Shown here piece by piece: positions 6,511-38,881 of a stretch of DNA of 40,688 bases. Each line of letters starts with the position of its first letter. The stretch's first letter is position 1. The stretch is from a virus: the IMG/VR virus record IMGVR_UViG_3300028392_001314, positions 1 to 40,688 of that record; one strand, given 5' to 3'. Made by a program: the position numbers and the translations under genes. The notes beneath the pieces were generated by a model. That model worked only from the letters and a program-made list of their open reading frames with translations, made no database searches and was not told where the DNA came from.

Positions 6511-6513
6511 GTA

Positions 6514-7848: not shown

Positions 7849-7857
7849 AGTTACTAA

Positions 7858-8575: not shown

Positions 8576-8581
8576 TTTACA

Positions 8582-11250: not shown

Positions 11251-11259
11251 AACTTTCTC

Positions 11260-14000: not shown

Positions 14001-14023
14001 ATGTTCTCCAAGTAACTAATATT

Positions 14024-14052
14024 ATTATACTATGTATATGCTTGCAAGTCAA
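14024..14052 (-). promoter_or_regulatory. uvsX promoter (TTGACT-17-TATAAT)
   Basis: -35 TTGACT (14052-14047) and -10 TATAAT (14029-14024), with a 17-bp spacer ending in G. The -35 contains the TGA stop of the beta-hydroxylase-like gene (14049-14051). Confidence 0.8.
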
Positions 14053-14597
14053 GGATTATTCTTGCTATGTGGAACATCGAATACAAAGGTAATTCTTGTA
14101 CAATCTCCAATGTTTTCTGTTCCGTGCATTAATTTATTGTTGAACCACAGCAGAGTTCCAGGTTCAACATCATAATGTTCATCGCCAACGAAATATCTAT
14201 ACTTTCCTTGAATGGATAAGTGATAGCGATCTCTTGTTTGGTAGTAAGTACCTTCGTCAATATGACGACCAACCATACCACCAACTGGCAATGATAAGAA
14301 ACCACAACGACTAAAAGTCTTGAAGTGTCTTTTCATAAAACTAACAATCTCTGTATGGTGTTCAATTGCTGGTGTTGGTATACAGATTTCACTGTCTCCA
14401 ACAAAGTCTTCAGCTTTTTCTACACCACCAATAACGAGTTGAAGATTACCAACAGGAATGTCGTCATATCCTCTGTCGAGCAACGATAGTGCTCCTTCAA
14501 CATTTCGCTGAGCCATCCAATCTTTAGGATACTGTTTCAGCTGTCTTACTATTTTGCTGACATTAATGCCAGTTTTAATTACTCTAATGTTATCCAA
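14049..14597 (-). CDS. Aspartyl/asparaginyl beta-hydroxylase-like dioxygenase (TTG start)
   Basis: The 182-residue protein has a compact 2-oxoglutarate Fe(II) core: H112-x-D114 in GRHIDEGTYY, H158 in LMHGTEN and R168 in TRITFVFDV. The spacing and the RYHLSIQG strand after HxD resemble the aspartyl/asparaginyl beta-hydroxylase family. The start is a TTG at 14597, decided by a perfect GGAGG six bases upstream; no ATG fits. That ribosome site lies within the codons of the C-terminal peptide of DNA polymerase, so translation is probably coupled. The target could be a protein side chain or a base or sugar in DNA. The first idea follows from the family, the second from the modification genes nearby. 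Confidence 0.8.
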   Translation of the reverse strand: MDNIRVIKTGINVSKIVRQLKQYPKDWMAQRNVEGALSLLDRGYDDIPVGNLQLVIGGVEKAEDFVGDSEICIPTPAIEHHTEIVSFMKRHFKTFSRCGFLSLPVGGMVGRHIDEGTYYQTRDRYHLSIQGKYRYFVGDEHYDVEPGTLLWFNNKLMHGTENIGDCTRITFVFDVPHSKNNP

Positions 14598-17085: not shown

Positions 17086-17649
17086 TTATTTCCCATAAAT
17101 TAACATCATAATATCCAACGCACAATCGTGAGTTGGGTGGTGCTTAATAACATTGTGTCGTTGAAAGGTAGGATGAACAATATCAGCATAGCCACCCTTG
17201 CCTGTTTCGCAAAGCAAGTCAACTGCTGTTCGAACATCACGCCAAACAAAGTAAGGTGCGATTAGATCTTGTTTGTTCCACTTACACAAACTATCAATAC
17301 ACATTTGATCAAGAGAACCTCGCGACCAAAAGGTTTGGTCTTTCTCTGGATACTTCGCGATATATTCTTTTATTTTATTGATTCCATCGATAGAAGTCAA
17401 ATCGTCTTTCTTGGGAGTTAGGGAAACACCTCGAACATACTCATGTTGATTTCCCCACCAATCAACAGTACTCTTATCAATAGAACGCTTCATTGCGATT
17501 TGTTCTTTGGCATCAAATTTTACAAAAAGAGCATTAGATAAAAGGTCTTCATAGTTGTAGTATCCATCAAGTTTGAAGTGAATGATGGAAGCTGAAAGAA
17601 CAACAGCTGTTGACTCGGCATCAAGAGTCTCAATATCAAACATAAACAT
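17086..17649 (-). CDS. dexA: Exonuclease A (DexA, DEDDh type)
   Basis: 187 residues with FDIETLD at the N-terminus, KSTVDWWGNQ in the middle, RDVRTAVDLL, and the C-terminal HDCALDIMML. These are the DEDD exonuclease positions and align with T4 DexA in order and wording; the T4 protein is somewhat longer. It degrades single-stranded DNA from the 3' end and is not essential in T4. It is the first gene after a consensus promoter, with GGAG upstream of ATG 17649. Confidence 0.88.
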   Translation of the reverse strand: MFMFDIETLDAESTAVVLSASIIHFKLDGYYNYEDLLSNALFVKFDAKEQIAMKRSIDKSTVDWWGNQHEYVRGVSLTPKKDDLTSIDGINKIKEYIAKYPEKDQTFWSRGSLDQMCIDSLCKWNKQDLIAPYFVWRDVRTAVDLLCETGKGGYADIVHPTFQRHNVIKHHPTHDCALDIMMLIYGK

Positions 17650-17685
17650 AATAAATCTCCAATGGAAAATAGCGTCTCAAGTATT

Positions 17686-17714
17686 ATTATACCTGAAACG
17701 CCATTAAATGTCAA
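17686..17714 (-). promoter_or_regulatory. dexA-43 promoter (TTGACA-17-TATAAT)
   Basis: Perfect -35 (17714-17709) and -10 (17691-17686) boxes with a 17-bp spacer ending in TTTCAGG. It should drive dexA, gene 43 and the oxygenase gene. Confidence 0.85.
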
Positions 17715-19253: not shown

Positions 19254-19261
19254 TATTTATA
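19254..19261 (-). promoter_or_regulatory. Late promoter box TATAAATA (hsp20)
   Basis: A perfect T4 late consensus. The TAA within it is the stop codon of the carbamoyltransferase gene (19257-19259). It would give a leader of about 140 nt before hsp20. Confidence 0.65.
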
Positions 19262-20912
19262 TATTTTTTACCGTAATTAATTTATTTTTTTCTGGTAGAT
19301 ATAGATATTCTATCTTACTTTTCCTCATTGTGTCAAGAGCATCTTGCACAGTTTCTACCATTGGTTCGCCTGCAAGATTGAATGATGTGTTAAATAACAT
19401 AGGAACTGCAGTTCTAGTATAGAACTCTTTAATTAAATTATAATAATGCTGGTTATCAGTTTCTTTTACTGTCTGTATTCTACAAGTATTATCAAAATGA
19501 ATAACTGAAGGAACTTTTTCTTTTACACCATCTTTAGCAGTTACAGCATACATCATGAATGGAGATTCAGTAAGACCAAGAGTATCAAAATAGTTTGAAA
19601 ATTCTTCAACAAGAATAGAAGCTGCGAAAGGTCTGAACCATTCTCTGTGTTTAACAGAATTAACAATGTCTTTACCATTGGAAACTCTTGGATCAAATAA
19701 TAAACTTCTATTTCCCAATGCTCTTGGACCAATTTCAGATTGTCCTTGGAACAATGCTACAATATTTCCAGATTCTAATAGATTACATATTTTAGAATAA
19801 TCTGTTTCTTCTTCAGTTTCTCCAAGTAGTAATGAATAATCATAAGAAGGAGATTCTCCAAGATAACATGTTTTTAATGGTCGCTTAGTTAAGTCGTCAG
19901 TAACTGAATGCCAATAATATTTACAAGCACCAATAGAGTTTCCTGTGTCTTCACAGTTTGGTTCAATATAAATTTCAACATCGTTGGGTATATGTTTTCT
20001 TATTTTTGAATTTAAACAAACATTTAATCCAACACCACCACTAATAACAAGTTTTTTCAAAGAAGTTTGTTTTAACATTCTCTGAATAAGGTTTAATCCC
20101 ATAACCTCAATAGAAGACTGTAAAGAAAATGCTAAATTTGCAGGATTAAGGTTTGGATATAAATCCGTGTTTAGACGAAACCGATTAACAAACAAATTAG
20201 AATTAGAATATATTTTATCTGTCTGAAGTATAAGTTCAGGAATGGAAGGATCTTTCTCACCATAAGCAGACAGCCCCATTGTTTTACCACAGTCTTCTAA
20301 ATCAAATCCTAGATGCTGTGTAACTGCCTGATACATACAACCAATGTCTAAGTCATACCTAAATTGCGTTTCATAGTTTATTGGAGTATTAAGAATGTGA
20401 TTATCAATATGGTGTTCAGAAGAATAATCTGCTTGTATATTATTCATATGAATATTTTTAAACACTGGATTAAACTCTGCTGGATACTTGGCATGAAAAA
20501 CAGTTGTTGTTTCGCTACCTTTGTTGCCAGATATTGTTTCAAATTCAGAACCTTGGCCATCCCATACTACACACAACGCTTCGTCGAATCCAGAATTATA
20601 AAAAGCATTTGAAGCATGAAATAAATGATGCGACTGTTGGTATTCTTTCCAACCTGTATTTAAATCAACAAGGTTATCTTCAAGAAGCATCCTGTAGAAT
20701 AATTCATTCTCTTGTTTCTTATAAGAATATCCAGAGAAAATAACAACATCAATTTTTGATGTGTACTGTTTAATTTTTTGTATGGATTTAAATGGAAAAG
20801 AAAATTTCTTTTTTCTAGAGATTCGTTCTTCCTGTAAAAACAATACAATCTCTCCGTCTTTTAAAAGACAGATTGAACCATTGGATTGTTTTTGAATTCC
20901 TAAAATCCACAT
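19257..20912 (-). CDS. Carbamoyltransferase (NodU/TobZ family)
   Basis: 551 residues. The N-terminal YrdC/Kae1-like part opens with WILGIQKQSNGSICLLKDGE and has the histidine cluster SHHLFHASNAF, GGVGLN and the metal-site stretch PNCEDTGNSIGA. The C-terminal part has IGPRALGNRSLLFDPR near residue 395 and HREWFRPFAASI. The family makes carbamoyl-adenylate from carbamoyl phosphate and ATP and transfers the carbamoyl group to a hydroxyl, usually of a sugar. With a TET/JBP-like oxygenase and a glycosyltransferase in the window, a modified base or its sugar is a reasonable target (inference). It has no Shine-Dalgarno sequence, follows a terminator and looks AT-richer than its neighbours, which suggests a recent arrival. 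Confidence 0.9.
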   Translation of the reverse strand: MWILGIQKQSNGSICLLKDGEIVLFLQEERISRKKKFSFPFKSIQKIKQYTSKIDVVIFSGYSYKKQENELFYRMLLEDNLVDLNTGWKEYQQSHHLFHASNAFYNSGFDEALCVVWDGQGSEFETISGNKGSETTTVFHAKYPAEFNPVFKNIHMNNIQADYSSEHHIDNHILNTPINYETQFRYDLDIGCMYQAVTQHLGFDLEDCGKTMGLSAYGEKDPSIPELILQTDKIYSNSNLFVNRFRLNTDLYPNLNPANLAFSLQSSIEVMGLNLIQRMLKQTSLKKLVISGGVGLNVCLNSKIRKHIPNDVEIYIEPNCEDTGNSIGACKYYWHSVTDDLTKRPLKTCYLGESPSYDYSLLLGETEEETDYSKICNLLESGNIVALFQGQSEIGPRALGNRSLLFDPRVSNGKDIVNSVKHREWFRPFAASILVEEFSNYFDTLGLTESPFMMYAVTAKDGVKEKVPSVIHFDNTCRIQTVKETDNQHYYNLIKEFYTRTAVPMLFNTSFNLAGEPMVETVQDALDTMRKSKIEYLYLPEKNKLITVKNI

Positions 20913-21154: not shown

Positions 21155-21580
21155 TTATTTAGTGGTAATCTTCTTACCGATATTATATTTAGGAACTAAT
21201 TCCCATTCAGCTTTCTCTTTGTATGCCACAACTTTAATTTGTGACAAAGAGACTTTTGGTTCTGCTTTTGTGTTATCCACAATCTTCAGCAATCCCCAAT
21301 CTTGCAATAATCCTGCCACTGTATTTCTACGCTCAACATCATTGGAAGTTATATTGGATTCTTTGCCATCCAATGCAAACAGTTCTTTGAAGTGAACGAT
21401 AAAATACCTACCCTGTTTATGTAGGATATGGCAAGATTGATATAATTTTTGTTCTTTTCTAGAAGCGATCCCGATTCGGGTAAGGGTTTCACGAATTTTC
21501 AAAAAGTTATCAGGTTCAGGTAACAGGACTTCCAGCATAGAATCTGGTGTCCAGTCATAGTATATCATTTCAACAGACAT
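21155..21580 (-). CDS. regA: RegA translational repressor
   Basis: The 141-residue protein aligns throughout with T4 RegA: FLKIRETLTRIGIA, LYQSCHILHKQGRYFIVHFKE, VAGLLQDWGLL and EWELVPKYNIGK. RegA binds ribosome-site regions of early mRNAs, including clamp genes and its own, and blocks ribosome binding. The N-terminus is about 19 residues longer than in T4. The start overlaps the gp62 stop as TAATG. The position after 45, 44 and 62 is as in T4. Confidence 0.95.
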   Translation of the reverse strand: MSVEMIYYDWTPDSMLEVLLPEPDNFLKIRETLTRIGIASRKEQKLYQSCHILHKQGRYFIVHFKELFALDGKESNITSNDVERRNTVAGLLQDWGLLKIVDNTKAEPKVSLSQIKVVAYKEKAEWELVPKYNIGKKITTK

Positions 21581-21960
21581 TATTTTCCACCTTTGTATAG
21601 TTTTTCTTCTATCATTGTCAACTGGTCAGGACTCACTATGTCCATAACCTCTTTTGCTCTCTCAGTAGAATATTTATAGTATTCCATGATTAGAAGAAGT
21701 TTCCTATCATCAGCGTCTTTTTTATGCCATTTCGAAAATCGTTTCTTCTTGCTAATTGTATTTAGCAAGAAATCGTTCTGCCACTTCTTTGGGATACCTC
21801 CATGTTGGTTCATCTCATTTGCCATCATAACTGTGTCAGCAAAATAAGATAACCCACGATTAACCATAAAAGGAGCATAGTCCTTTTCGTTTAAAGGATC
21901 TTCCCGTATCAGATCCTTCTTGGTTAAGTTTATTGCATTTAGAAAATCAAAGGGACTCAT
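21580..21960 (-). CDS. 62: Clamp loader small subunit gp62
   Basis: 126 residues, shorter than the 187 of T4. Matching blocks include KDYAPFMVNRGLSYFADTV, ANEMN and the basic KKKRFSKWHKK (T4: RGKRYGKWAK). With four gp44 subunits it opens and loads the gp45 clamp. It lacks the extra C-terminal part of T4 gp62. Its start overlaps the stop of the preceding membrane-protein gene (TAATG). Confidence 0.88.
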   Translation of the reverse strand: MSPFDFLNAINLTKKDLIREDPLNEKDYAPFMVNRGLSYFADTVMMANEMNQHGGIPKKWQNDFLLNTISKKKRFSKWHKKDADDRKLLLIMEYYKYSTERAKEVMDIVSPDQLTMIEEKLYKGGK

Positions 21961-22280
21961 TAGTCTGCTCCCAACAAAAGTATATCTGTTGGTTCGGCAG
22001 CAAATCGTTTACCTGGAAACTTATCTTGTAGTTGTTTCTCAATTTCGTATCTATCTTTACCTTGAGCCATAAACACATGCGTTGTATTATCATACACATA
22101 CAGCATATCATTATGTTTCTCAATCTTAATTTTTATGTGAGTTTCATTAATATGTTCTTGGAATTCATGGATAGCATGACGAAGACTTCTACTAACCATT
22201 CGTTCATGTGCGTGCCATCCATACAGTGCTCCAATAAACCATACTAAGAAAAGCGATATCATTGTTAAAATAATTTCCAT
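21960..22280 (-). CDS. Small membrane-anchored hypothetical protein (106 aa)
   Basis: The first 22 residues (MEIILTMISLFLVWFIGALYGW) form one transmembrane helix. The rest is soluble and charged, with a final mixed alpha/beta segment. Its placement between genes 44 and 62 is unusual because those two subunits form one complex. It overlaps gp62 by one base. The role is unknown; anchoring of replication at the membrane is only a guess. Confidence 0.75.
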   Translation of the reverse strand: MEIILTMISLFLVWFIGALYGWHAHERMVSRSLRHAIHEFQEHINETHIKIKIEKHNDMLYVYDNTTHVFMAQGKDRYEIEKQLQDKFPGKRFAAEPTDILLLGAD

Positions 22281-22287
22281 AACAGAC

Positions 22288-23223
22288 TCACTTAAACTTA
22301 CATTGCATCATGATCTCAACCATGGCAGCAGTTGTGTTCAACTCATGGTCAGCTACGAATGCTGCTTTGTATTGATAGTCTGCAAGAATCAAAACGAGAT
22401 GGTGGATGGTAGAAGTTTCAAGGAATTCTACAGCATTGTCATAAAGTTCTTTGAACAACTGTGTAGTTTCAATGTCAGAATTCTTAGCGACCCATTTACG
22501 CACTTCAGGGAATTTCTTTTCCTTCAGGAATCCAACCAACTCGCGGAATGATTCTTGAGATAAGTTTACAAGAATACCAGAGTCAATCTTACCTGCAACA
22601 GAGTAGCGTTGAAGTTCGTTTAGAATCCTACGATAGTCGGGAAAGTGTTTAGTAACTACTTCTGCAACTACCTTTGGATCAAACTCAATCTGCTCATCTT
22701 TTAGGATACCTGCTGCACGCTTGAAGAAGTTGGCTGCGATTTGTTGTTTATCTTTACCATCGATCTTAAACTCTACAACTGAACACCGACTATGCAGTGG
22801 TTCAATAATACGATTCTTAAAGTTACATGTAAAGATAAATCGGCAGTTGTTAGAGAACTCTTCAATGAACCCACGAAGCGCAGGTTGAGTAGAGTTGGCA
22901 TTTAGATAGTCCGCTTCGTCAAGGATAACTACCTTTTTAGAATCTGTAAGAGATACAGTTGAAGCAAAGGACTTGATCTTAGTGCGAAGAACATCGATAC
23001 CAGATTCTTCTGAACCATTAATCAATAGGAACTCGGCACCAATCTCATTACATAGTGCCTTGGCAACTGTGGTCTTACCAACACCTGCCGTACCGCAAAA
23101 TAGAAAGTTTGGTAACTGTCCAGATGAGATAAACTCTTTGAAGGTTTTCTTCAAAGAGTCAGGTAGGATACAGTCGTCAATGGTCTGTGGTCGATACTTT
23201 TCAACCCAAAGAAATTCACTCAT
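22288..23223 (-). CDS. 44: Clamp loader ATPase subunit gp44
   Basis: 311 residues of AAA+ type. Walker A GTAGVGKTT is at 44-52, Walker B LDEAD at 101-105, and the SRC motif has arginine finger R146. It matches T4 gp44 and replication factor C small subunits. It uses ATP to load gp45 at primer ends. It follows a 104-residue gene and precedes the membrane protein. Confidence 0.95.
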   Translation of the reverse strand: MSEFLWVEKYRPQTIDDCILPDSLKKTFKEFISSGQLPNFLFCGTAGVGKTTVAKALCNEIGAEFLLINGSEESGIDVLRTKIKSFASTVSLTDSKKVVILDEADYLNANSTQPALRGFIEEFSNNCRFIFTCNFKNRIIEPLHSRCSVVEFKIDGKDKQQIAANFFKRAAGILKDEQIEFDPKVVAEVVTKHFPDYRRILNELQRYSVAGKIDSGILVNLSQESFRELVGFLKEKKFPEVRKWVAKNSDIETTQLFKELYDNAVEFLETSTIHHLVLILADYQYKAAFVADHELNTTAAMVEIMMQCKFK

Positions 23224-23239
23224 AATATAAAAACTCCAA

Positions 23240-23554
23240 TCAAATTAAAAACGAAACTAACGATGCTGTAGATTTTTCTTTCTTAGGTCTAGGAACTGAT
23301 ACCTTATCCAAGTTAGTTTTACCTTTTACCAAATCCCATGCTGCTATACACATATTTCTAACATCATTAGGATGCTTGGCTTTTGCTTCACTCTCTGTAT
23401 AAAAATCAGCAATCCATTCCCAGTCTTTGTGGTAATCACACCAAACCATTTTCTTAATCTTCTTGCCTGTTTCAAGATCAATTGTGTATAGTTCTTCTGG
23501 TGGTAACACTTTACGATTTACTCTTGGGTTTGGTATTTTCTTTCGCTTATCCAT
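23240..23554 (-). CDS. Hypothetical protein (104 aa)
   Basis: I start at ATG 23554 (MDKRKKIPNPRVNRK) with GAGA upstream; the open frame to 23611 runs into a terminator hairpin. It has basic ends and a centre with MVWCDYHKDWEW that could bind metal. I recall short proteins of this type in other T4-like phages but no function. It lies between gp45 and gp44. Confidence 0.7.
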   Translation of the reverse strand: MDKRKKIPNPRVNRKVLPPEELYTIDLETGKKIKKMVWCDYHKDWEWIADFYTESEAKAKHPNDVRNMCIAAWDLVKGKTNLDKVSVPRPKKEKSTASLVSFLI

Positions 23555-23591
23555 AATATATTTCTCATAATCAATGTTGACTAAAAGGGGT

Positions 23592-23617
23592 AAGAGGGCG
23601 ATCAGATTCACCCTCTT
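23592..23617 (-). terminator. Hairpin after gene 45
   Basis: A 7-bp stem AAGAGGG/CCCTCTT with a 12-nt loop, followed by ACCCCTTTT. It would reduce read-through from the abundant clamp mRNA into gene 44. Confidence 0.65.
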
Positions 23618-23637
23618 GTTCAGGTACTACATAATAA

Positions 23638-24294
23638 TTATTCGAAGGTAGAGTCGGCTTCGACTGCGACATAGTAGACGAGGTCGTTTGTTCCTGCGAA
23701 TCTGCTGATTCGTTTGCTTGAGATTGAGACATTATATTCTCCTGCTACCATCTTTAAGTTCTCAACTTTAAGATTAACATTAAACACCTTATCAGTTGGA
23801 CCAAGATCTACATCATAGGAGTTCGCTGAAGCGTTTTTCTTCTGGCAAACTTTACCGATAATCTTAGAACCATCACCAGAAATAACCATGTCAGGTGCGG
23901 AAAGAACACCGCTAGTGCGACGAATCAAATCCAATGTTGCCGAGGTAACACGGAAGTTAATTTCTGCATCTGGAAATACGATTTCTTTCTGTGGAACAGT
24001 AAGGTTTGCTGCTTCTGCTGCATAGTATTTAATACTATTATTGTTTTCACGAATGTCTACATACTTGTCGCTGAATGTCAAGTCTGGATCTTGAAACAAT
24101 GATAAAGCACCAAGGAATTCATTTAGATCATAGATACCAAAGTCGCTTGGGATTGTTTCGGCAATCGGAGACGATGCCATAATATTTTTTGGACCAGAAA
24201 TGGTACCAATTTTTCTTCCTGCTTTTAACAGAAGGTTACTATTGATTGTTGAAAAGTTTTTCAACAGTTCGACAGTTTGTTTACTTAATTTCAT
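23638..24294 (-). CDS. 45: Sliding clamp gp45
   Basis: 218 residues, close to the 228 of T4 gp45. It starts MKLSKQTVELLKNFSTINSN and has FGIYDLNEFLGALSLF and FPDAEINFRVTSATL, typical of T4-type clamps. A trimeric ring tethers polymerase and, in T4, activates late transcription with gp55 and gp33. The docking pocket would accept the L-[DE]-x-[FL]-F tails seen here on gp43, the dioxygenase and the glycosyltransferase. The start has AAGGAAAT and its own promoter. Confidence 0.95.
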   Translation of the reverse strand: MKLSKQTVELLKNFSTINSNLLLKAGRKIGTISGPKNIMASSPIAETIPSDFGIYDLNEFLGALSLFQDPDLTFSDKYVDIRENNNSIKYYAAEAANLTVPQKEIVFPDAEINFRVTSATLDLIRRTSGVLSAPDMVISGDGSKIIGKVCQKKNASANSYDVDLGPTDKVFNVNLKVENLKMVAGEYNVSISSKRISRFAGTNDLVYYVAVEADSTFE

Positions 24295-25509: not shown

Positions 25510-25902
25510 TTATACTGGGATGCCGTTGGCTCTCAACTCAGCCATGAATTCGTCATCAGATTGTAATTCTACTCCTTCTTCAGGACTTTCGTCAATTATT
25601 TTTTGGAGTTTACTTGCATCTTTATCTGTCTTTGTAACTTTGACAGTTGAGAATGTTGCAAGTTCTGATTCACTTGGCCAAGGCATTTGGTACTGACCAC
25701 GACCTACTCGGTTGTTACTTTGCAACCAGTTAGGATAGCCCAGTTTCTCACCAGAGGTGTTACGCTCATCCTTCATCTTGTAATACGATGCGTGGATTTG
25801 TTTGGCACCAAGGGTACGCTCTGAGTAATAAGCAGGGAAGTTCTCGAGTGTGCGAACGATAAACTGCTTTTGTGACTTAGTAAGATCTTTAAATTTTAAC
25901 AT
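25510..25902 (-). CDS. Hypothetical protein sharing a domain with the CobS-like ATPase
   Basis: 130 residues. Residues 56-76 (YPNWL...N-x-[VL]GRG-x-Y) match residues 44-62 of the CobS-like protein encoded just upstream (YPNWLMENKLGRGLYAIP). The segment before it is helical and resembles a winged-helix N-terminal part. So this is a free-standing version of the ATPase adaptor domain, followed by an acidic tail. It may compete for or extend the same partner. The role is unknown. Confidence 0.75.
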   Translation of the reverse strand: MLKFKDLTKSQKQFIVRTLENFPAYYSERTLGAKQIHASYYKMKDERNTSGEKLGYPNWLQSNNRVGRGQYQMPWPSESELATFSTVKVTKTDKDASKLQKIIDESPEEGVELQSDDEFMAELRANGIPV

Positions 25903-25919: not shown

Positions 25920-27077
25920 TTAAATTTGAACTTCATCTGTTTTCACTTCTTCAACAACAGGGGCTGGTTCTTCAACAACCAGTTCACCAGCACTTACCTT
26001 ATCGAACAAGTCAACAAAGGCAAGGCGAGTTGCGTCATCGAAGCGATTAGTACACAACTCAATTGCTTTCTTCTGATTCTTAAAGATCGAGAATGCTCGA
26101 ACGATATGAACCAGACGACGAGTAGTGATAGTTTCGTCAACACCACCAGCGTCAAAGGTACGACGAATTGCTTCAGCCCACTTAACAAGGTTGCTGGCAA
26201 ATTCTTCGTCAAGAACACCAAAGGACTTCATAAGATTTTGAACAATCTTAATCTCAACTTTGGCATCAGGATATTCCTGATTGAAAGTAACTGCGAATCG
26301 CTCAAGGAACGCTTCGTTCAGAACATTGGTACCGATGTAACGACCATCATCGCTACCCTTACCCTTTGTGTTTGCCGTAGCGAACAAGTTAAATCCTGTA
26401 GCTGGGTAAACCATTTCGTTCTTAAGTTTGAAGTAGAAAGGTTTGCCCTCTAAGATTGGCTGGAGACATAACAAAGTATTGGCACCACCAGCATCAATCT
26501 CATCGAGCAACAGGGGGATGCCTAGTCGCATCGCAATCATAACTGGACCCTCAACGATTTCGACATTACCATCGACAAGGGTTTTAGAACCAATCAGCTG
26601 ATCTTCGTCAGTCATCTTGTTCAGATTGACACGGATCAGTGGTCGCTGTAACTTTGCGCAAATCTGCTCAATAGAAGTAGACTTGCCATTCCCAGTTGGA
26701 CCAGAGATATAAGTTGGATAGAATTGTTTAGAAGCAATGATGCGCTCTAAATCTTTATAGTTACCGAAGGGAACATAGTTGCCATCAATTTTAGGCACAA
26801 GGGATTCTAAGTTCGTATAATCCACAATCACACTTTCAGGTTGTTGAGGTGCGAGTGCAGTATTACCTACGATCGGAGCAGTAATGCTTCCGCCAGGAAT
26901 CGCATATAACCCACGACCGAGTTTATTTTCCATCAACCAATTCGGATACTTGGAAGATTTCAGTTTTTCCATAACAGTTTGAATCTGTTTACGGGAAACC
27001 TGTGATGTCGTTTTAACATCGGGGAACATCTCAAAGAGTTTTGACTCAAACTCATTCACATAACTATTAGCCATCAT
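25920..27077 (-). CDS. CobS/MoxR-like AAA+ ATPase
   Basis: 385 residues. An N-terminal adaptor domain (to about residue 65) is followed by an AAA+ core with GPTGNGKS at 126-133, LLLDEID and FLERFAVTF with an arginine finger. It is close to the phage proteins annotated CobS, the ATPase of cobaltochelatase. The MoxR/CobS class works with a VWA-domain partner, and one is encoded upstream (27402-29546). Without a CobN-like subunit in the window, a role in cobalamin synthesis is not shown. An ATP-driven chaperone or protein-remodelling role is as likely. It has its own consensus promoter. Confidence 0.88.
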   Translation of the reverse strand: MMANSYVNEFESKLFEMFPDVKTTSQVSRKQIQTVMEKLKSSKYPNWLMENKLGRGLYAIPGGSITAPIVGNTALAPQQPESVIVDYTNLESLVPKIDGNYVPFGNYKDLERIIASKQFYPTYISGPTGNGKSTSIEQICAKLQRPLIRVNLNKMTDEDQLIGSKTLVDGNVEIVEGPVMIAMRLGIPLLLDEIDAGGANTLLCLQPILEGKPFYFKLKNEMVYPATGFNLFATANTKGKGSDDGRYIGTNVLNEAFLERFAVTFNQEYPDAKVEIKIVQNLMKSFGVLDEEFASNLVKWAEAIRRTFDAGGVDETITTRRLVHIVRAFSIFKNQKKAIELCTNRFDDATRLAFVDLFDKVSAGELVVEEPAPVVEEVKTDEVQI

Positions 27078-27102
27078 TCACTCACTTTCATAATATAGAA
27101 CA

Positions 27103-27131
27103 ATTATACACTATTTCGCAATTAATGTCAA
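27103..27131 (-). promoter_or_regulatory. CobS-like gene promoter (TTGACA-17-TATAAT)
   Basis: Perfect boxes (-35 27131-27126, -10 27108-27103) with a 17-bp spacer ending in G. The -35 contains the TGA stop of the 51-residue gene. Confidence 0.85.
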
Positions 27132-27283
27132 GCACCAAATGCAAGATCGTGTTCAAATGCTGTAAGAACAGCTTCAACTTCTTCTCGGTTGATTAATCGA
27201 CTTCCCAACATAACGCACTCTGCTTCGATGCCGTAGCTGAAGCATAGGTTATACAACTCATTGTCTGTAAAAGAATCCCACAT
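27128..27283 (-). CDS. Small ORF, 51 aa
   Basis: MWDSFTDNELYNLCFSYGIE starts this helical acidic protein. It has AAAGG upstream, its own promoter with a sensible leader, and a stop inside the next promoter. It sits between the VWA peptidase gene and the CobS-like gene, so a linking or regulatory role is possible. No family is recognised. Confidence 0.65.
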   Translation of the reverse strand: MWDSFTDNELYNLCFSYGIEAECVMLGSRLINREEVEAVLTAFEHDLAFGA

Positions 27284-27312
27284 AATCGTTACCTTTCTAA
27301 GTCTATAATAAT

Positions 27313-27341
27313 ATTATACCTGAATTCCGAATTAATAGCAA
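27313..27341 (-). promoter_or_regulatory. Promoter of the 51-residue gene (TTGCTA-17-TATAAT)
   Basis: -35 TTGCTA (27341-27336) and -10 TATAAT (27318-27313), 17-bp spacer ending in ATTCAGG. Confidence 0.75.
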
Positions 27342-27353
27342 GTATTTTCGGAA

Positions 27354-27376
27354 TAACCCTACAGAGCGTAGGGTTA
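27354..27376 (-). terminator. Hairpin, AACCCTAC family
   Basis: A 9-bp stem TAACCCTAC/GTAGGGTTA with a 5-nt loop, 26 bases after the VWA gene stop. It shares its stem sequence with the hairpin at 6514. Confidence 0.6.
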
Positions 27377-27401
27377 ATAAAAAAGGTTTAAAATCAATGA
27401 C

Positions 27402-29546
27402 TTAGGCAATCAATCCTACAAACCGACTCAGAACGACTCGGCTGGACTTCTTTACACCGAGGTATTTACTAAACTGCTTTGCAATAGACTTTGCATTGGC
27501 TGTAGAGTCAATCTCTAACTCACCCTCCTCAATCTTTTGTTTAGACGCTGGAAGCAAGTACATTTCGTCCCTGCCTGTGTTTTGGACCACACAGTAATCG
27601 TTCTGACGGATATCCTTGCGGATCTGTTCAGTCATCAAATATTCGCTGGTTGTATTCTCCTTTGGAAGATTATCCCGAATGAAGCAACCAATATCGCGAC
27701 GACTGTTGCTGACAACATGGAAACCAACAGTCTTAATATTGTAACGATCTTTAATGATTCGCAAGAAAGTACGACTCTGTTCTGAACCATTATCGCTCAA
27801 AGGATATTCCTTCTTGGTAATTGGATCACGAACATAGTTCTTAACCTTGCACTGTTTACTGTTACTGTTGTAACCATACTGACGAATGTTACGATTCGCA
27901 CCAGAGACAGAGTGACCTGCGCCATCAGTCAAAGTAATGAAAGACATCTTTTCAACAGCATGTTGTTTATTGAACTTGCCGATGTAGTCAATCATAAACA
28001 ATAATGCTTCATTCAGCGGAGTTGAGTTCAAACCATAGTCACGAGAATATGTCCATGGCTCAAGAGTCAAATACTCAATCATCGCATTAAATTCGCTGTT
28101 GGTCATTTTGTGATTGAACAACTCCAACAAGTTCCAGTTACTATCTGAAAACCCAGACATATTTAGATCAAGTTTGTTGATATGTGCTGCACGAACATCG
28201 TAGGGAATATGTTCATCACGATAACCAGTTGTAAACGCAAAGACCTGATATGGAATTTGAATTCGTTGGCAGAACATAGCAAGATTAATAACCTGTTTGA
28301 TTGTATCAGTCATATTATTTTGCATAGAACCTGACCAGTCTAACAAGAAAAGCATACCATGATTCTTGTCTTCAGGAAGAACATCTAATTTTCTAAAGAT
28401 ATCGTCAGTCAAAGTATGAGCATACAATTTACGCATATCCAAGTCGCCTGACTTAGCAGTGGTAATACGCTTATACTCAGTTGCTGACTTGCGCATCTCA
28501 AACTCTTTTACAAGATAATTCACAACACGCATGGAGTCAGTCTTAAACTTAGCCAAAGAATCTCTTCGTTGACCATAGTAGTTGTCAACCCACGCTTGGC
28601 TGTAGTTTTGAACACGATATGTTTTTGCTTCAGCCAAATCTCTTTTCAAGTCAGATAAAACAGTTTTTGTTGCGATAACAGGATCGTGCCACATTTCCAA
28701 CTTAGGTATAAAGTTCTGAACGATAGTATCAGTATCAGCCAACTCATCTAGACGCTGTTTGAATGCAGCCTGTGTAGTTGATTCTAATTCTTTTTCTTCG
28801 TCGACTTTCTTTTCTTCATCGGTTTGTGAAGTAGAAGAACGCTTATTAGTTTCTGGTTGCTCTTCGTCTTCAACTTCTTCCTCAGGGGAGTAATTGTCAA
28901 AGTCATCAGGATCATCCATAAAATTGTCGATCTCATCCATTTCTTCAGGTGGATCTTCACCGAGCAACTCTTGTAATTTCTTGAGTTCTTCTCGTTTGGC
29001 ATCGCGAGCATCCTTAGAGAACGCATAGATTTCTTGAGCCAATTTATATACATCATCCATAGTGTCGCAACGATCAACTCGGCGAACATAGAACATTTCA
29101 GGTGTTGTAAATTTTACACCACAGTTGATACCACACTTGTAGTATAGATTGATACGGTCAATCAGTAGCAAGTTAGAAAGATCTTTACCTTGGATACCAA
29201 AGAAGTCTTTCTCGTTGAGTTCTTTATAACCAGTGATGAATGCCTTACGCAGACCTGGATATTTGTTTTTAATTTTCTTTTCAATACGAACATCCTCAAC
29301 TACATTCATGTAACCTTGGATTGAGCGGAAGTCTGTTTCTTCCATATGTTCAGTTGTGGTGTATAGAGCATGACCAACTTCGTGACCGATGAGCATTTCC
29401 TCAACATCGTTAGTCATATCTTTCCACATTGGGAGTGTAAGAGTTCTAGTGATACTCTCAAATGATGCTGTTCCTACATTGGCACGAATAACATTCAAGT
29501 TTTCATTAGCCAAAAGGCGAGCAAGCAGGTCTTTAGAATTCATCAT
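27402..29546 (-). CDS. HExxH metallopeptidase-like protein with CobT-type VWA domain
   Basis: 714 residues in three parts. The N-terminal domain has GHEVGHALYTT (H55, E56, H59), a zinc-peptidase motif, followed by NVVEDVRIEKK with a possible third ligand. The middle, about 190-270, is acidic and low-complexity (DEIDNFMDDPDDFDNYSPEE). The C-terminal VWA domain has a MIDAS motif DWSGS near residue 402 and TLTDGAG. The VWA plus acidic linker resembles CobT, the partner of CobS. This suggests that it and the CobS-like ATPase form a remodelling machine, here with a peptidase domain attached (inference). GAGG precedes the start. Confidence 0.85.
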   Translation of the reverse strand: MMNSKDLLARLLANENLNVIRANVGTASFESITRTLTLPMWKDMTNDVEEMLIGHEVGHALYTTTEHMEETDFRSIQGYMNVVEDVRIEKKIKNKYPGLRKAFITGYKELNEKDFFGIQGKDLSNLLLIDRINLYYKCGINCGVKFTTPEMFYVRRVDRCDTMDDVYKLAQEIYAFSKDARDAKREELKKLQELLGEDPPEEMDEIDNFMDDPDDFDNYSPEEEVEDEEQPETNKRSSTSQTDEEKKVDEEKELESTTQAAFKQRLDELADTDTIVQNFIPKLEMWHDPVIATKTVLSDLKRDLAEAKTYRVQNYSQAWVDNYYGQRRDSLAKFKTDSMRVVNYLVKEFEMRKSATEYKRITTAKSGDLDMRKLYAHTLTDDIFRKLDVLPEDKNHGMLFLLDWSGSMQNNMTDTIKQVINLAMFCQRIQIPYQVFAFTTGYRDEHIPYDVRAAHINKLDLNMSGFSDSNWNLLELFNHKMTNSEFNAMIEYLTLEPWTYSRDYGLNSTPLNEALLFMIDYIGKFNKQHAVEKMSFITLTDGAGHSVSGANRNIRQYGYNSNSKQCKVKNYVRDPITKKEYPLSDNGSEQSRTFLRIIKDRYNIKTVGFHVVSNSRRDIGCFIRDNLPKENTTSEYLMTEQIRKDIRQNDYCVVQNTGRDEMYLLPASKQKIEEGELEIDSTANAKSIAKQFSKYLGVKKSSRVVLSRFVGLIA

Positions 29547-29571: not shown

Positions 29572-29600
29572 ATTATACGCTTTTTTCTATTTAATAGCAA
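29572..29600 (-). promoter_or_regulatory. VWA-peptidase promoter (TTGCTA-17-TATAAT)
   Basis: -35 TTGCTA (29600-29595) and -10 TATAAT (29577-29572), 17-bp spacer ending in GCG. The leader is about 20 nt with GAGG. Confidence 0.75.
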
Positions 29601-29637: not shown

Positions 29638-29662
29638 ATACCCATACAGGATGTAGGGTTAT
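29638..29662 (-). terminator. Imperfect hairpin, AACCCTAC family
   Basis: An inverted repeat with TACA/TGTA and CCC/GGG segments and small bulges. It overlaps the stop codon of the gene ending at 29659. Related in sequence to the hairpins at 6514 and 27354. Confidence 0.5.
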
Positions 29663-30336
29663 TTGTACCAGTTCTGAAAGAGCATTTCAGGGACAGTCCA
29701 ACAAAGTTGACCCTCCCATCTGACATTGGCTTTGAACTCAGAGTCTTTTAGGTTGTTCAAATTTATGATTGCATAACGACCAGTAAACAAACCTATAAGA
29801 AATGCGTAGGTTGTCCCATCGTTTGCCAATGCATGTTTGACTTTATGGTATTTAATTGTGGAAACACCATCGCCAGTGCCACACTGAACATCAATTCTAG
29901 TACCAGTAGATCTATCAATTAGATCAGCATCACCAGTTCGTTTGAATGTTTCAATGTTAGTTAGATCGTCACCACCATTACGATCTAATTCCGTTAGACC
30001 AAGTTTCTTAATCATAAATGGTAGGAACACACGCTCAGCGAGGTATCCTTGCATCCACTTATAGTAAACTTCTTCACAGGCACGACCATTATTGTTTAGT
30101 CGTTCAATAATATGGTTATCTTTCATAACTGTATATGAACGAATTATCATCTGGTCAATATTTCCACCAAAGGGAATTTCTAACTGCTGATTGATGTTAT
30201 TGAAGATAGTTGAAAGTCGACTGTTGTATTTCTCTAACAGTTGGTAGTTAGGAACAACGATATCCTTACCTTTCAACCATTCTTTGTATTTACCTTGATT
30301 GGTAAATCCCATTTGTTTTCTAAACTCTTTGCTCAT
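29659..30336 (-). CDS. Hypothetical protein, possible PD-(D/E)XK-like nuclease
   Basis: 225 residues. The segment GDADLID followed by GTRIDVQCGTGDG could be a D...(D/E)xQ/K core of the restriction-endonuclease-like fold, with beta strands around it and a helix before (ACEEVYYKWMQGYLAERVF). The match is loose because the last catalytic Lys is not where expected. It overlaps gp46 by 4 bases (ATGA), so it is expressed with the gp46/47 nuclease complex and may act in DNA processing. The alternative is a structural DNA-binding protein. Confidence 0.7.
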   Translation of the reverse strand: MSKEFRKQMGFTNQGKYKEWLKGKDIVVPNYQLLEKYNSRLSTIFNNINQQLEIPFGGNIDQMIIRSYTVMKDNHIIERLNNNGRACEEVYYKWMQGYLAERVFLPFMIKKLGLTELDRNGGDDLTNIETFKRTGDADLIDRSTGTRIDVQCGTGDGVSTIKYHKVKHALANDGTTYAFLIGLFTGRYAIINLNNLKDSEFKANVRWEGQLCWTVPEMLFQNWYK

Positions 30337-32045
30337 ACAATAACTGAGAAGTCGTTACGCTTTTCAAATTTAATCACAGAACGGAATTTATCAAACAGCT
30401 GGTCGCCTTTGTGAGAGATAACAAACACATTGGCATTCTCACCCAGCGTATTCATCAGGTTCAAGAAGTAGTCAGTACCATTGACATCTAACGATGAGTC
30501 GAAGATTTCATCAAGCATTAGTAAGTTTGTATTGACAGAGTTCTTCAGCTTGGCAATTTGACGCCAAGTAAACAGGATAGCCAAGTCAATACGCATCTTC
30601 TCACCCTCAGAGAAAGAAGCATAGGTAAACTCGTCACGAAAACGAGATTTAATTGTTTCGTTAAATGCTTCATCTAACTCGAAGTGAATGTAAGAATCCA
30701 TCTGGTTTAGATATTGATTAATCAACTTGTTCATCACAGGCAGATACTCACGAATAATCGCAGTCTTAATACCAGTATCGCGAAGCAAAGCTCCAGCGAT
30801 TTCCTGAAGTTCTTTATCAGAATCTAACTCTTTCTTACGATTGATATTAGACATAGCATCTTGAGCCAAGTCTTTTAACTTGATCTTTTCCTCATCGATA
30901 TTTGCCGTATCAGTTTTTGCGCTTTCAGCTTCAGCCTGTAGCGTTTTAACTTGTTTGTTGAGGAGGGTGATTGCTGAGTTTCTTGTAGATAACTCAATAT
31001 TCTTTTCGGTAATTTGTGATTGTACTTGAGCAATGTTAGATAATTTCTCATTAAGGTTGGAGAGGATTGTTTCGAGTTCGCCAACTTTTCCATTCTGTTC
31101 CAACAACTTTGAATTAAGTTCCTCGACAATTTTCGATTTGTGTTCCTCTGGGATACCTTGATCACATGAAGGGCAAACATCGTGCTCGTTAAAAAATTGT
31201 GACTGGTGTTCGCAGGTTTCGATTTTCTGTAGCAGCTTGGACTTGATTGACTTTGCTTTGTCAATGTCTTCAGATATAGTTTCCTTGTCATTGATGCTTC
31301 CTTTAAGAGTATCGATCTCCGAAAGGATAAGTTCGATCTCGCCCTCGATAGATAAAATTTCAGCAGAGTTTTCAGATATTTTTGATAGGATACTTTCGAT
31401 GGCACTCGACTTCGCTTCCGAGATGGTTTTAATGATCGCTTGTTGAGATTCAACTTTCTGCTTTGCCAAACTAAGTGCTGTTTCGACTCTGTTAATTTCA
31501 TCTTTGGTTGCATTTGATCTTTCCTTTAACAACGAATTCATAGTTGAAAAGATTTTGATATCAAGGATGTCTTCAATAACTTCCCTACGCTGATTCGATG
31601 GTAGTTGCATAAAAGGAACAAACGATGCTGAACCAAGGATAACTACCTGAGTGAATGTTTTATAATTTAGACGAAGGATTTGTTGTTCAAGAATCTTTTG
31701 ATAATCTCTTGACGCAGCATCTTGGTTCATCAACACACCATCCATGTAGATTTCAAAGATGTTTGGTTTGATACCACGAATAATCTTGTACTCTTTCTGA
31801 CCAATCGAGAACTCAATCTCAACCAAAGAATTTTTGCCGTTGATTGAATTAATCATCTGGTTCTTATTAATGTTACGGAATGGCTTTCCGAACAATCCAA
31901 AACACAGCGCATCTAGACAAGTAGATTTACCCTCACCATTTTTACCAATGACAAGGGTAGTCGTAGACTTGTTAAGAATTAATTTGTTTGGCTGATTACC
32001 AGTTGATAAGAAGTTTTTCCAAGACAGCGTCTTAAATACAATCAT
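30333..32045 (-). CDS. 46: Recombination nuclease subunit gp46 (Rad50-like)
   Basis: 570 residues. Walker A GKNGEGKST is at 34-42, long coiled coils flank a CPSC zinc hook near residue 290, and the C-terminal half has the ABC signature FSEGEKMRIDL and Walker B LLMLDEIFD. With gp47 it processes DNA ends for recombination and degrades host DNA. It overlaps the 105-residue gene by 4 bases. Confidence 0.95.
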   Translation of the reverse strand: MIVFKTLSWKNFLSTGNQPNKLILNKSTTTLVIGKNGEGKSTCLDALCFGLFGKPFRNINKNQMINSINGKNSLVEIEFSIGQKEYKIIRGIKPNIFEIYMDGVLMNQDAASRDYQKILEQQILRLNYKTFTQVVILGSASFVPFMQLPSNQRREVIEDILDIKIFSTMNSLLKERSNATKDEINRVETALSLAKQKVESQQAIIKTISEAKSSAIESILSKISENSAEILSIEGEIELILSEIDTLKGSINDKETISEDIDKAKSIKSKLLQKIETCEHQSQFFNEHDVCPSCDQGIPEEHKSKIVEELNSKLLEQNGKVGELETILSNLNEKLSNIAQVQSQITEKNIELSTRNSAITLLNKQVKTLQAEAESAKTDTANIDEEKIKLKDLAQDAMSNINRKKELDSDKELQEIAGALLRDTGIKTAIIREYLPVMNKLINQYLNQMDSYIHFELDEAFNETIKSRFRDEFTYASFSEGEKMRIDLAILFTWRQIAKLKNSVNTNLLMLDEIFDSSLDVNGTDYFLNLMNTLGENANVFVISHKGDQLFDKFRSVIKFEKRNDFSVIV

Positions 32046-32359
32046 TCACTCTTCCATTTCATACCCATAGACTTATAAATGAATCTCATTATAAAATTGG
32101 GTTTCTTTTTAGAAATAACAGTAATAGGCATAGCATCTACATTAATAGTAAAGGATGGAGATCCAAGATTAGTTGACATAGTAGTCCAAGTACCACCATT
32201 ACCAACCATTAATCCCATACCAGAAGTAATTGATACAGAATTTCTTGCCTGTTCAGCTCGCTTATCTAGAATATACTTTTCAGTTAATGTATAATCTAGA
32301 TCAAGCGGAACCTGTTCCGTAAGCGGAAAGAAATAACTAATCTCAAGTTGTTGCATCAC
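32042..32359 (-). CDS. Hypothetical protein between 47 and 46 (105 aa)
   Basis: Beta-rich with a glycine patch (SGMGLMVGNGGTW) and a basic end (FIYKSMGMKWKSE). No nuclease motif. It overlaps gp47 and gp46 by ATGA on both sides, so all three are translationally coupled. A small partner of the gp46/47 complex is plausible but not shown. Confidence 0.75.
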   Translation of the reverse strand: MMQQLEISYFFPLTEQVPLDLDYTLTEKYILDKRAEQARNSVSITSGMGLMVGNGGTWTTMSTNLGSPSFTINVDAMPITVISKKKPNFIMRFIYKSMGMKWKSE

Positions 32360-33411
32360 TCTACCTCGATGTTGACTGCTTCCGTATAAAGAGACTTCAT
32401 AAATGTTTTCAATTTATCTTTGTCGTAATCAGTTTCAATTGACTCAACATAGTTGGTCAATACATCTAAAGTATCTTCAAGGTTTATGGTAGAATCTATC
32501 TCACCTTCGTTGTATGATGATAGATCCTCAATGATTTTTACTTCATATGGATCACTATCATAAACCTTCGTAATGAATTTGTCAAATTTATATAAGTCAT
32601 TCTTGTTAACAACTACAACTTTTACATATTTGTTTTTTAAGTGTCCGTATGTTTGGAGGGAAGGATCGGCGAGGGCATCGTCGTACTCGACTCTTTCGAA
32701 CATCGTATAAGGATTTCCGATGAACTCGAGTTCTCTTGTTTGTAAATCGAACAGGTGAAATCCTCGGGGATCGTTAAAGTCTTGCCATGTAAGTTCGTAT
32801 GGATTTCCCAAATAATAAATGTGACCATCATTACTACGATGGTGGTAATGGCCACTGAAAACCATATCAAACTTTTTAAACAAATCCTTAGAAAGACCTT
32901 CATGACTTTCCATTCCTCTATACATTGCGAATCCAGCAATTTCGAAATGCCCCATGCATATCTCAGCCTTGCTAGAGTTGATAACTTCTAAACTCTCATC
33001 ATAATTATCAGCACAAATCCAAGGAGTAAAACAAATTGGAGTGTCATGAACGACTATGTCTGATGCCTTACTTATTAAGGCAATATTTGTATACTCAGCC
33101 AGCAATAACTCTGGCGAATTAACTTCATTAGTATTCTTAAAATAGGTGTCATGATTACCTGCAATCATGTAAAGTTTAATGTTTCGTTTTTCAAGTTCGT
33201 CAAAGAACATTTTCTTTGCTCGATCAAGCGAATAAAAGTTTACATATTTGCGTCTATCAAAAGTATCACCAAGAATAAGAACGCTGTCAACACCAGCTGA
33301 ATCGAGAGTAGGAAAGAAAGTATTGTCATAAAATTGTTGGTAGAAGTCTAAGAAGGCAACACTATCATTTCTAGCACCGAAGTGCTGGTCTGTAATAATT
33401 GCTACCTTCAT
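32356..33411 (-). CDS. 47: Recombination nuclease subunit gp47 (Mre11-like)
   Basis: 351 residues with the metallophosphoesterase motifs in order: D8-x-H10 in TDQHFG, LGDTFDRR (D49), AGNHD (N86, H87) and GHYHHR. The length is like T4 gp47 (339). It is the nuclease partner of gp46. The start overlaps the stop of the 43-residue gene as TAATG. Confidence 0.95.
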   Translation of the reverse strand: MKVAIITDQHFGARNDSVAFLDFYQQFYDNTFFPTLDSAGVDSVLILGDTFDRRKYVNFYSLDRAKKMFFDELEKRNIKLYMIAGNHDTYFKNTNEVNSPELLLAEYTNIALISKASDIVVHDTPICFTPWICADNYDESLEVINSSKAEICMGHFEIAGFAMYRGMESHEGLSKDLFKKFDMVFSGHYHHRSNDGHIYYLGNPYELTWQDFNDPRGFHLFDLQTRELEFIGNPYTMFERVEYDDALADPSLQTYGHLKNKYVKVVVVNKNDLYKFDKFITKVYDSDPYEVKIIEDLSSYNEGEIDSTINLEDTLDVLTNYVESIETDYDKDKLKTFMKSLYTEAVNIEVE

Positions 33412-38326: not shown

Positions 38327-38881
38327 CTAATTCTTTGTAATAACACCAGTTGTATTTGCAAAAGTGTAATAAGAGAAGCGGAATGTTGCACTACCAGTTA
38401 GGTAATTAACACTGTCATTTGTCGATTGGAACTGCAAGGTTTCCAATGAGATTGGGAATAAATCATTAAAGGTAATTGTTTTTACAGGATTGTTTGTGTT
38501 GTTCAATATTTGCATAGTACCAATCGAGTAATTTGTTGCAAGTTCGCTAAGAACATTAGACTGGTTTGCAGCTACATAATTTACATACTGTTGATAACTT
38601 TGCGGAAATCCTAATGCCACAATCCAGTTGTAGATAGAAATATAATTATCCATCTGTTCATCAACAAGAAACTGCACATTCAAAGTATCATATGTTAAGT
38701 GGTCGCCTGGAACTGGCATATTAGCAAATGGGTTTGCTAATATTGGATCACCAAAAGTAATTCCTGGAATGTGAACCTGTTGACAGAAATACTCAATGTC
38801 TGGCAACTTAGCAATGTTGAACTTGAATCCATTAGGAGATAATGGATTTACATTTGGAGGAACTGTTAGATTTATGCTCAT
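38327..38881 (-). CDS. 19: Tail tube protein gp19
   Basis: 184 residues (T4: 163). The beginning, NGFKFNIAKLPDIEYFCQQVHIPG, and the middle, VDEQMDNYISIYNWI, are typical of T4-type tube proteins. It stacks in hexameric rings to form the inner tail tube. The ATG at 38881 has no ribosome site and follows a TATAAATA box by exactly 5 nt, so the late mRNA may start at the ATG. Confidence 0.93.
   Translation of the reverse strand: MSINLTVPPNVNPLSPNGFKFNIAKLPDIEYFCQQVHIPGITFGDPILANPFANMPVPGDHLTYDTLNVQFLVDEQMDNYISIYNWIVALGFPQSYQQYVNYVAANQSNVLSELATNYSIGTMQILNNTNNPVKTITFNDLFPISLETLQFQSTNDSVNYLTGSATFRFSYYTFANTTGVITKN

Follow-up and report, generated by a model that had tools for sequence, protein, structure and literature searches.

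Nearly all marine T4-like cyanophages carry a gene annotated "cobS", and the reason is a puzzle; it is listed among their core genes, and ecologists take it as a sign of phage-driven vitamin B12 metabolism. What does its product do together with that of the peptidase gene with which it is paired? We approached this question with a divergent version of the locus in IMG/VR record IMGVR_UViG_3300028392_001314, of which the whole stretch analysed (positions 1 to 40,688; 40,688 nucleotides) is called the window here, and in which all features discussed lie on the minus strand. In the order of transcription, the gene for a peptidase-VWA protein of 714 aa (27402–29546) is followed by a 51-aa ORF (27128–27283), whose match to EAD7 is below threshold (20.7 bits against a cut-off of 32), and then by the gene for a CobS/MoxR-type AAA+ ATPase of 385 aa (25920–27077). 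The larger protein matches PHROG 459 ("peptidase", also called CobT-like) with E=5.1e-180 over residues 4–714 and the ATPase matches PHROG 249 ("porphyrin biosynthesis") with E=4.6e-104 over residues 28–365, thus the pair is not a product of chance. T4-like cyanophages and pelagiphages carry these two families as their peptidase-cobS pair, which was thus already known. Record counts by cyanophage group are equal for the two genes, and cobS lies downstream of the peptidase gene in 39 of 41 long viral loci. The pair of T4-like cyanophages such as Synechococcus phage syn9 shows the same families, the same gene order and the same place between gp46 and gp45; the window protein comes from an uncultured, divergent relative with about 29–36% identity to the cyanophage peptidase, and no functional difference was seen. 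The nearest named match by megablast was only gp44 of P-HM1.

Two readings of this gene pair or its like are in print. Liu 2021 (PMC8651126) discusses the same gene pair as a CobST that hijacks host CobN. Iyer 2021 (PMC7824862) described, in T4-like jumbo phages, a MoxR ATPase alongside a VWA protein whose N terminus is fused to a metallopeptidase, and read such pairs as chaperone-peptidases of virion assembly. The pair of these group 2.2 jumbo phages, likened to ours by description only, has the same domain architecture; since that architecture was described there, a MoxR/VWA-peptidase reading is not new. What is new here is the replication/recombination neighbourhood of the pair in most of the unrelated elements examined, together with the sigma70-like promoters of both window genes.

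An earlier note, made from the DNA letters alone, had placed HEVGH, an acidic linker and a VWA domain in one protein, called its partner a CobS-like ATPase, and taken the two for a MoxR/VWA pair with a built-in metallopeptidase; these assignments were borne out, the last of them as a zincin-like fold in the model and its structural matches. The ATPase matches AAA_5 (8e-16), CbbQ_C (above cut-off) and the CobS family TIGR01650 (99.2 bits, E=2.5e-28, with the curated cut-off of 558.55 not reached), and its G126–K132, D192–E193, N236, R260 and R320–321 are invariant, leaving the Walker A and B, sensor and arginine residues intact. Residues 276–714 of the partner (27405–28721) comprise a helical neck, a finger and a VWA/MIDAS domain, for which the best structural match is the NorD VWA domain (9qh6_G; Z 15.9, 243 residues aligned, rmsd 4.1), with the MIDAS domain of Midasin at Z 15.2. 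The MIDAS motif is DWSGS (residues 403–407; 28326–28340), of which D403, S405 and S407 are, like T509 and D541, invariant among 42 relatives, and a finger motif, GxLDxxKL, precedes it by about 35–40 residues in nearly all families. NorQ/NorD likewise join an AAA+ hexamer to a VWA partner with finger and MIDAS; the NorD target is the membrane protein cNOR, and the part of its description available mentions no peptidase domain, whereas the phage protein is predicted to have one.

This N-terminal domain (residues 1–195; 28962–29546) was modelled by AlphaFold with pLDDT 92.2 and pTM 0.86, and it appears to be minigluzincin-like. The zinc-binding motif HEVGH (residues 55–59, with E56; 29370–29384) sits in a helix spanning residues 46–62, and NVVEDVRIE (residues 81–89; 29280–29306) supplies a candidate third zinc ligand, E84, in the predicted glutamate helix 73–95; both are gluzincin features by sequence and model, and N81, E84, D85 and R87 are invariant in 42 sequences. 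The best six Foldseek matches are minigluzincins (jannalysin, abylysin and selecase; probability 0.98–1.00), with a weak best E of 0.016, and the chains re-aligned at Z >= 5 are, among the matches listed, all zinc-peptidase-type folds, including ArdC, IrrE/PprI and jannalysin, at a modest Z of at most 6.8. At the sequence level, neither the N-domain profile nor the full protein drew a meaningful match from the PDB, and the profile matched no known peptidase. Minigluzincins, ArdC, IrrE-PprI and Wss1 have the active-site helix and glutamate helix in common with the phage domain, but they lack its fusion to the VWA partner of an AAA+ ATPase. An acidic linker of low model confidence (residues 196–262, 42% D+E; 28761–28961) follows the domain. 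HExxH and the downstream Glu are kept in all 91 viral relatives with an intact N terminus, which rules out a pseudogene or a chance motif, and since 37 of these 91 fall outside the peptide pattern used in the search, the conservation is not a search artefact. HExxH is gone in Pseudomonas phage nickie and in an Acinetobacter phage-plasmid, two related mobile lineages in which the gene pair still stands beside replication genes; thus the peptidase activity, itself a prediction, is probably not the whole function of the machine, and we think that the machine chiefly remodels, with proteolysis as an addition.

The surroundings of the pair suggest where such a machine might act. Upstream in the window lies a gp46/gp47 region (SbcCD-like recombination nuclease; 30333–33411), identified by translations, family HMMs and synteny, and downstream lies a region of the gp45 clamp and gp44/gp62 clamp loader (21580–24294), identified by translations and synteny. 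Across viral loci, gp46 is upstream in 46 of 64 and the clamp or clamp loader downstream in 36 of 41. Replication or recombination genes adjoin the pair in most of the unrelated elements examined, a hand-picked set; these include Kyanoviridae, several other phages, phage-plasmids, and IncC and IncT plasmids. Early phage genes cluster in any case, and exceptions were found: one phage clade has the peptidase gene moved away from gp46 and cobS, and Gordonia phage Hollow and Roseobacter phage CRP-810 carry the pair without clear replication neighbours. The MoxR-DUF3150-VWA genes of IncC, IncT and related plasmids resemble the window in having a MoxR ATPase and a VWA protein with HExxH..NxxED; they differ in an additional DUF3150 gene and in their neighbours, SSB, Bet/RecT and a lambda-type exonuclease. 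As to expression, a perfect sigma70-type promoter, TTGACA-17-TATAAT (27103–27131), stands 26 nt ahead of the ATPase start, and a promoter-like site, TTGCTA-17-TATAAT (29572–29600), 26 nt ahead of the peptidase start, both calls being consensus matches only; weaker promoter-like sites are in total no more frequent than in shuffles. No T4-type late TATAAATA was found ahead of either gene. The published main texts, to which the search was confined, gave no transcript timing for cobS or the peptidase gene.

How do these observations bear on the metabolic reading, in which phage CobST would substitute for ChlI/ChlD and use host CobN for cobalt insertion, raising cobalamin (Liu 2021)? Cyanobacteria possess CobN without CobS/T of their own (PMC9227772), and CobS/CobT share the AAA+/VWA pairing, the acidic linker and a related finger and VWA domain with the phage pair; besides the distant TIGR01650 match of the ATPase, the finger and VWA domain of its partner are distantly homologous to those of CobT (hhalign P 85%, E 6.6e-6). 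Against this, the window peptidase-VWA protein has no match to Pfam CobT (PF06213) or CobT_C at E<=1, neither family is among those matching A1 members, and PF06213 is absent in five complete relatives; the name CobT was dropped for the window protein because it fails Pfam CobT. The phage N-domain profile is not significantly similar to that of cellular CobT (P 0.4%, E 0.15), a protein defined by its work with CobN, whose degenerate N-domain lacks HExxH in 80 of 80 cases, unlike the viral relatives. The earlier note had argued against cobalt chelation and suggested looking for a CobN-like gene, and none (PF02514) is present in the window, which is a fragment, or in five complete phage genomes, a result that agrees with its view, although a host could supply CobN. 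The same pair occurs in Pelagibacter phages, and CobN is absent from a small alphaproteobacterial genome (G045) that holds the best match to the pelagiphage S21 protein, which for Pelagibacter is only suggestive. Related pairs are also found on plasmids of E. coli, for which de novo B12 synthesis is engineered and not native according to the part of the source available (PMC6249242), and even among cells, two Bartonella genomes and a Parvibaculum MAG have CobT but no CobN. We therefore favour the MoxR/VWA-peptidase reading over chelation; on this reading the machine is not a cobalt chelatase, and a metabolic role through host CobN seems improbable.

Virion assembly or maturation, in which the machine would fold and clip structural proteins late, was proposed for the same architecture in jumbo phages by Iyer 2021 (PMC7824862), who cite a MoxR-VWA system that an archaeal virus requires to assemble its tail, and T4-like phages do process head proteins. 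The window context points instead to replication/recombination, as the pair sits in the replication module, away from head and tail genes, behind sigma70-type rather than T4-type late signals, and its homologues reside on conjugative IncC/IncT plasmids, which build no virion; we consider this role unlikely. Alternatively, a NorQD-like machine might open a target for metal entry, possibly the phage ribonucleotide reductase or Fe(II) oxygenases, with HExxH carrying the metal and cutting no peptide bond. NorD, the closest structural relative of the VWA domain, serves iron insertion (PMC13036017), 2OG-Fe(II) oxygenase genes often adjoin the pair, and EDTA affects the fitness of Caulobacter cobT mutants (PMC12004947). 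Yet a site that only carries metal would have no use for the catalytic Glu, which is invariant, and the plasmid relatives share no metalloenzyme neighbour, having SSB, Bet/RecT and exonuclease genes in its place, so that metalloenzyme maturation is about as improbable as the metabolic role. Counter-defence or host takeover by a protease targeted at a host immune or regulatory protein would suit the early-type promoters and the resemblance of the N-domain to zincins of the ArdC and IrrE type, but the pair is syntenic across phages of cyanobacteria, SAR11 and Ochrobactrum, unlike the usually patchy counter-defence genes, and PADLOC gave no convincing family for the two proteins; we regard this as very improbable. 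For a ternary MoxR-VWA conflict system (VMAP and others), the one hint of a third component or effector domain is the sub-threshold EAD7 match of the 51-aa ORF.

The reading that we prefer, with roughly even confidence, is that the two genes encode a MoxR/VWA remodelling machine that includes a fused zinc peptidase, is expressed early and acts on replication/recombination complexes or on DNA-bound host proteins. Its parts, as sequence and fold show, are the CobS/MoxR-type AAA+ ATPase and a partner made of a gluzincin-like N-domain, a flexible acidic linker, and a VWA domain with pore finger and MIDAS. By analogy with the NorQD mechanism, the ATPase hexamer would grip the finger of the VWA protein, ATP turnover would turn the VWA domain relative to the N-domain, a MIDAS-held substrate would be pulled open, and the tethered zinc site might then cut or clip it. 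The earlier note had suggested cleavage or maturation of some host or phage complex, and the gene neighbourhood narrows this putative target towards replication or recombination complexes; from this and the sigma70-type promoters, we infer early expression, with proteins of the phage complexes or host proteins on DNA as putative substrates.

The pair has long been filed under vitamin B12 genes, and a replication-linked machine makes the cyanophage "cobS" puzzle directly testable. If the pair is indeed a remodelling peptidase tied to DNA replication/recombination, the B12 inference fails for some of the ocean's most common viruses, and the kindred machine of IncC-type plasmids and enterobacterial phage-plasmids gains a testable function. 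More tentatively, and with doubt prevailing, phage and plasmid "CobST" pairs may all belong to one widespread AAA+/VWA/gluzincin system associated with DNA, which would both remodel and clip the proteins bound there during replication or recombination, as the counterpart on mobile elements of DNA-protein-crosslink proteases. Alphaproteobacterial CobST, found in some bacteria without CobN, may then be its descendant or a sister line, its peptidase domain dead. What links the phage and cellular CobT N-domains is an intermediate protein, SSU5_49, with matches to both Pfam CobT (2e-37) and PHROG 459.

The adaptor-like N-terminal domain of the ATPase (residues about 1–75; 26853–27077) recurs in a second copy in a 130-aa protein encoded downstream (25510–25902; BLASTP E=1e-7), which has relatives in 18 viral loci and is a candidate third component. 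In the N-domain of the peptidase-VWA protein, the stretch that aligns best with cellular CobT sets EDxRIE against EQARVE.

Both genes lie on the minus strand of this 40,688-base T4-like phage, an uncultured virus record, at exactly the coordinates that the earlier note proposed: the peptidase-VWA protein (714 aa) at 27402-29546 and the AAA+ protein (385 aa) at 25920-27077. Their assignment to PHROG 459 (“peptidase”) and PHROG 249 (“porphyrin biosynthesis”), respectively, is clear. The pair and its MoxR/peptidase-VWA reading are already known (Iyer et al. 2021, PMC7824862), and MoxR/VWA neighbours in plasmids were noted earlier (PMC2642839). As far as the searched literature goes, the combined evidence is new: the phage family strictly keeps HExxH, which cellular CobT lacks; the N-domain has a predicted minigluzincin-like fold; and the pair sits in replication/recombination modules of unrelated mobile elements.

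The HEVGH motif on which the metallopeptidase proposal rested is borne out, since HExxH is found in 91/91 relatives having an intact N terminus, and H55, E56, H59, N81, E84, D85 and R87 are invariant across 42 diverse sequences. Modelled alone (pLDDT 92.2), the N-domain is predicted to comprise three short strands, the HEVGH helix (residues 46-62) and the E84 helix (73-95), with a helical extension behind them. The top six Foldseek matches, with probabilities of 0.98-1.00 and modest E-values (best 0.016), are all minigluzincins (jannalysin, abylysin and selecase), and ArdC and IrrE/PprI rank slightly lower. Upon realignment, 17 chains gave Z of at least 5, and those listed (ZMPSTE24, ArdC, IrrE/PprI, BlaR1, BepA, jannalysin, abylysin and selecase) are all of the zinc-peptidase type. 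ArdC is an antirestriction protein of plasmids, and both IrrE/PprI and Wss1 are proteases linked to DNA; the likeness is no more than suggestive.

A different view was taken by Liu et al. 2021 (PMC8651126), who suggested that the name “peptidase” is mistaken and that viral CobST borrows the CobN of its host. The phage pair may contribute to host CobN in cyanobacteria, which do have this subunit (PMC9227772), and a search for CobN, as the earlier note had proposed, found none encoded in five complete phage relatives. The phage ATPase scores 99 bits against the 558 required by the CobS equivalog model. Homology to CobT extends over the finger and VWA domain, but Pfam CobT does not match the phage protein and the N-domains differ. 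Where HExxH would stand, cellular CobT has degenerate sequence of the form ALRxACHDxxxH...FDAVEQARVE, and the motif occurs in 0/80 cellular proteins, in contrast to its strict presence in the phage family. This conservation and the modelled fold lead us to argue that the “peptidase” label is probably nearer the truth than the view of Liu et al. 2021. Moreover, CobT without CobN was found in two Bartonella genomes and one Parvibaculum MAG (L175, L183 and L185), thus a chelatase role is not universal even for cellular CobT.

The acidic linker was likewise recovered, at residues 196-262 (42% acidic, mostly low-confidence in the model). Residues 276-714 resemble the VWA part of NorD: more residues align with NorD from NorQD complexes and with the MIDAS domain of Midasin than with ordinary VWA domains, and the MIDAS residues D403, S405, S407, T509 and D541 are invariant (42 diverse sequences). 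About 35-40 residues ahead of the MIDAS, almost every related family has a GxLDxxKL-like motif, which fits the pore finger of the NorQD account (PMC13036017). If the pair works like NorQD, the finger would sit in the pore of the ATPase hexamer, which would turn the VWA domain relative to the N-domain. The linker would be stretched and a MIDAS-bound substrate prised open, and its exposed segment would be cut by the fused zincin. Since the pair can persist after loss of HExxH, remodelling is in our view its core function. Most VWA proteins of distant pairs keep the motif, but Pseudomonas nickie and an Acinetobacter element have lost it with the pair still beside DnaE. In a midpoint-rooted tree with several long branches, this loss is nested among HExxH carriers and all sampled cellular CobT form one fully supported clade.

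Neighbourhood and promoter type lead us to infer replication/recombination proteins as the target. The minus-strand order is gp47, a small ORF, gp46, a 225-aa protein, the peptidase-VWA gene, a 51-aa ORF and the AAA+ gene, followed by 130-aa, winged-helix, 151-aa and 117-aa proteins and then the gp45 clamp and gp44 clamp loader (gp names assigned by translation, synteny and family HMMs). The window also encodes a DNA polymerase, a UvsX-like recombinase, a DnaB-like helicase and one further DNA helicase. By tblastn, the peptidase-VWA protein occurs in 463 phage records and the AAA+ protein in 835, with identical cyanophage-group counts for both (365 Synechococcus, 61 “Cyanophage” and 24 Prochlorococcus records each). 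Within the fetched stretches, the order gp47-gp46-(x)-peptidase-(x)-cobS-(x)-gp45-gp44-gp62-regA is kept, with small insertions, in Synechococcus, Prochlorococcus, Pelagibacter and Ochrobactrum phages. Among IMG/VR loci, gp46 lies upstream of the peptidase in 46/64 with enough sequence, and cobS and the clamp/clamp loader lie downstream in 39/41 and 36/41, respectively. In one clade the peptidase is parted from gp46 and from cobS, which is ~20 kb off, and lies near a ribonucleotide-reductase-like and an RNase-H-like gene, as read from translations.

Distant pairs were examined in a non-random sample (IncT, IncC and other plasmids; SSU5, Rhizobium, Pseudomonas, Acinetobacter, Vibrio ICP2, Gordonia, Roseobacter and Bacteroides elements), and their neighbours are given as observed in that sample. 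IncT, IncC and Citrobacter pairs adjoin SSB, Bet or RecT and a lambda-type exonuclease; SSU5 and Rhizobium pairs adjoin ligase, DNA polymerase, SSB and exonuclease; and the nickie and Acinetobacter pairs adjoin ligase as well as DnaE. Primase, helicase and polymerase neighbour the ICP2 pair, primase and DnaB helicase lie near that of Gordonia ChisanaKitsune on the opposite strand, a DNA polymerase lies a few genes from the Bacteroides pair, and a toprim protein neighbours the Shewanella pair. Two of the distant pairs examined have no clear replication neighbour.

Five perfect sigma70 consensus sites (TTGACA-17-TATAAT; 6482-17714, minus strand, and 27131) all lie on the coding strand, with none on the other strand or in 60 shuffles, and one is 26 nt ahead of the ATPase gene. 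Sites of the form TTGCTA-17-TATAAT precede the peptidase gene by 26 nt and the 51-aa ORF by 30 nt. The T4-type late octamer TATAAATA occurs at 38894, 21678, 19261 and 6482, including just ahead of the ORF at 38327-38881, and is absent before either gene of the pair. Together, the sigma70 sites and the lack of a late octamer before the pair point, on consensus grounds, to early, host-sigma-dependent expression.

Several neighbours also merit mention, all on the minus strand. The 130-aa protein (25510-25902) carries a second copy of the ATPase N-terminal domain, repeating its motif YPNWLxxNxxGRGxYxxP; it is kept in 18 other viral loci and may be an adaptor common to the machine. The 51-aa ORF (27128-27283), with its own promoter-like site, has a sub-threshold match to Effector-associated domain 7. 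Family searches gave no match for the 225-aa protein (29659-30336), whose place in relatives is taken by other genes, among them one for peptide deformylase. A Nol-like carbamoyltransferase (19257-20912; PHROG 1601, E=2.5e-148) lies inside the replication region. Elsewhere, Listeria phage P100 (L100) has a CobS-like ATPase (PHROG 249, 4e-75), but the two flanking genes that were translated lack HExxH, and the one that was scanned gave no VWA match. Plasmids of the IncT, IncC and related types (L095, L097 and L104) carry a DUF3150 gene beside the VWA gene, next to SSB/Bet-RecT/Exo, and MoxR, DUF3150 and VWA form a three-gene set that deserves separate study.
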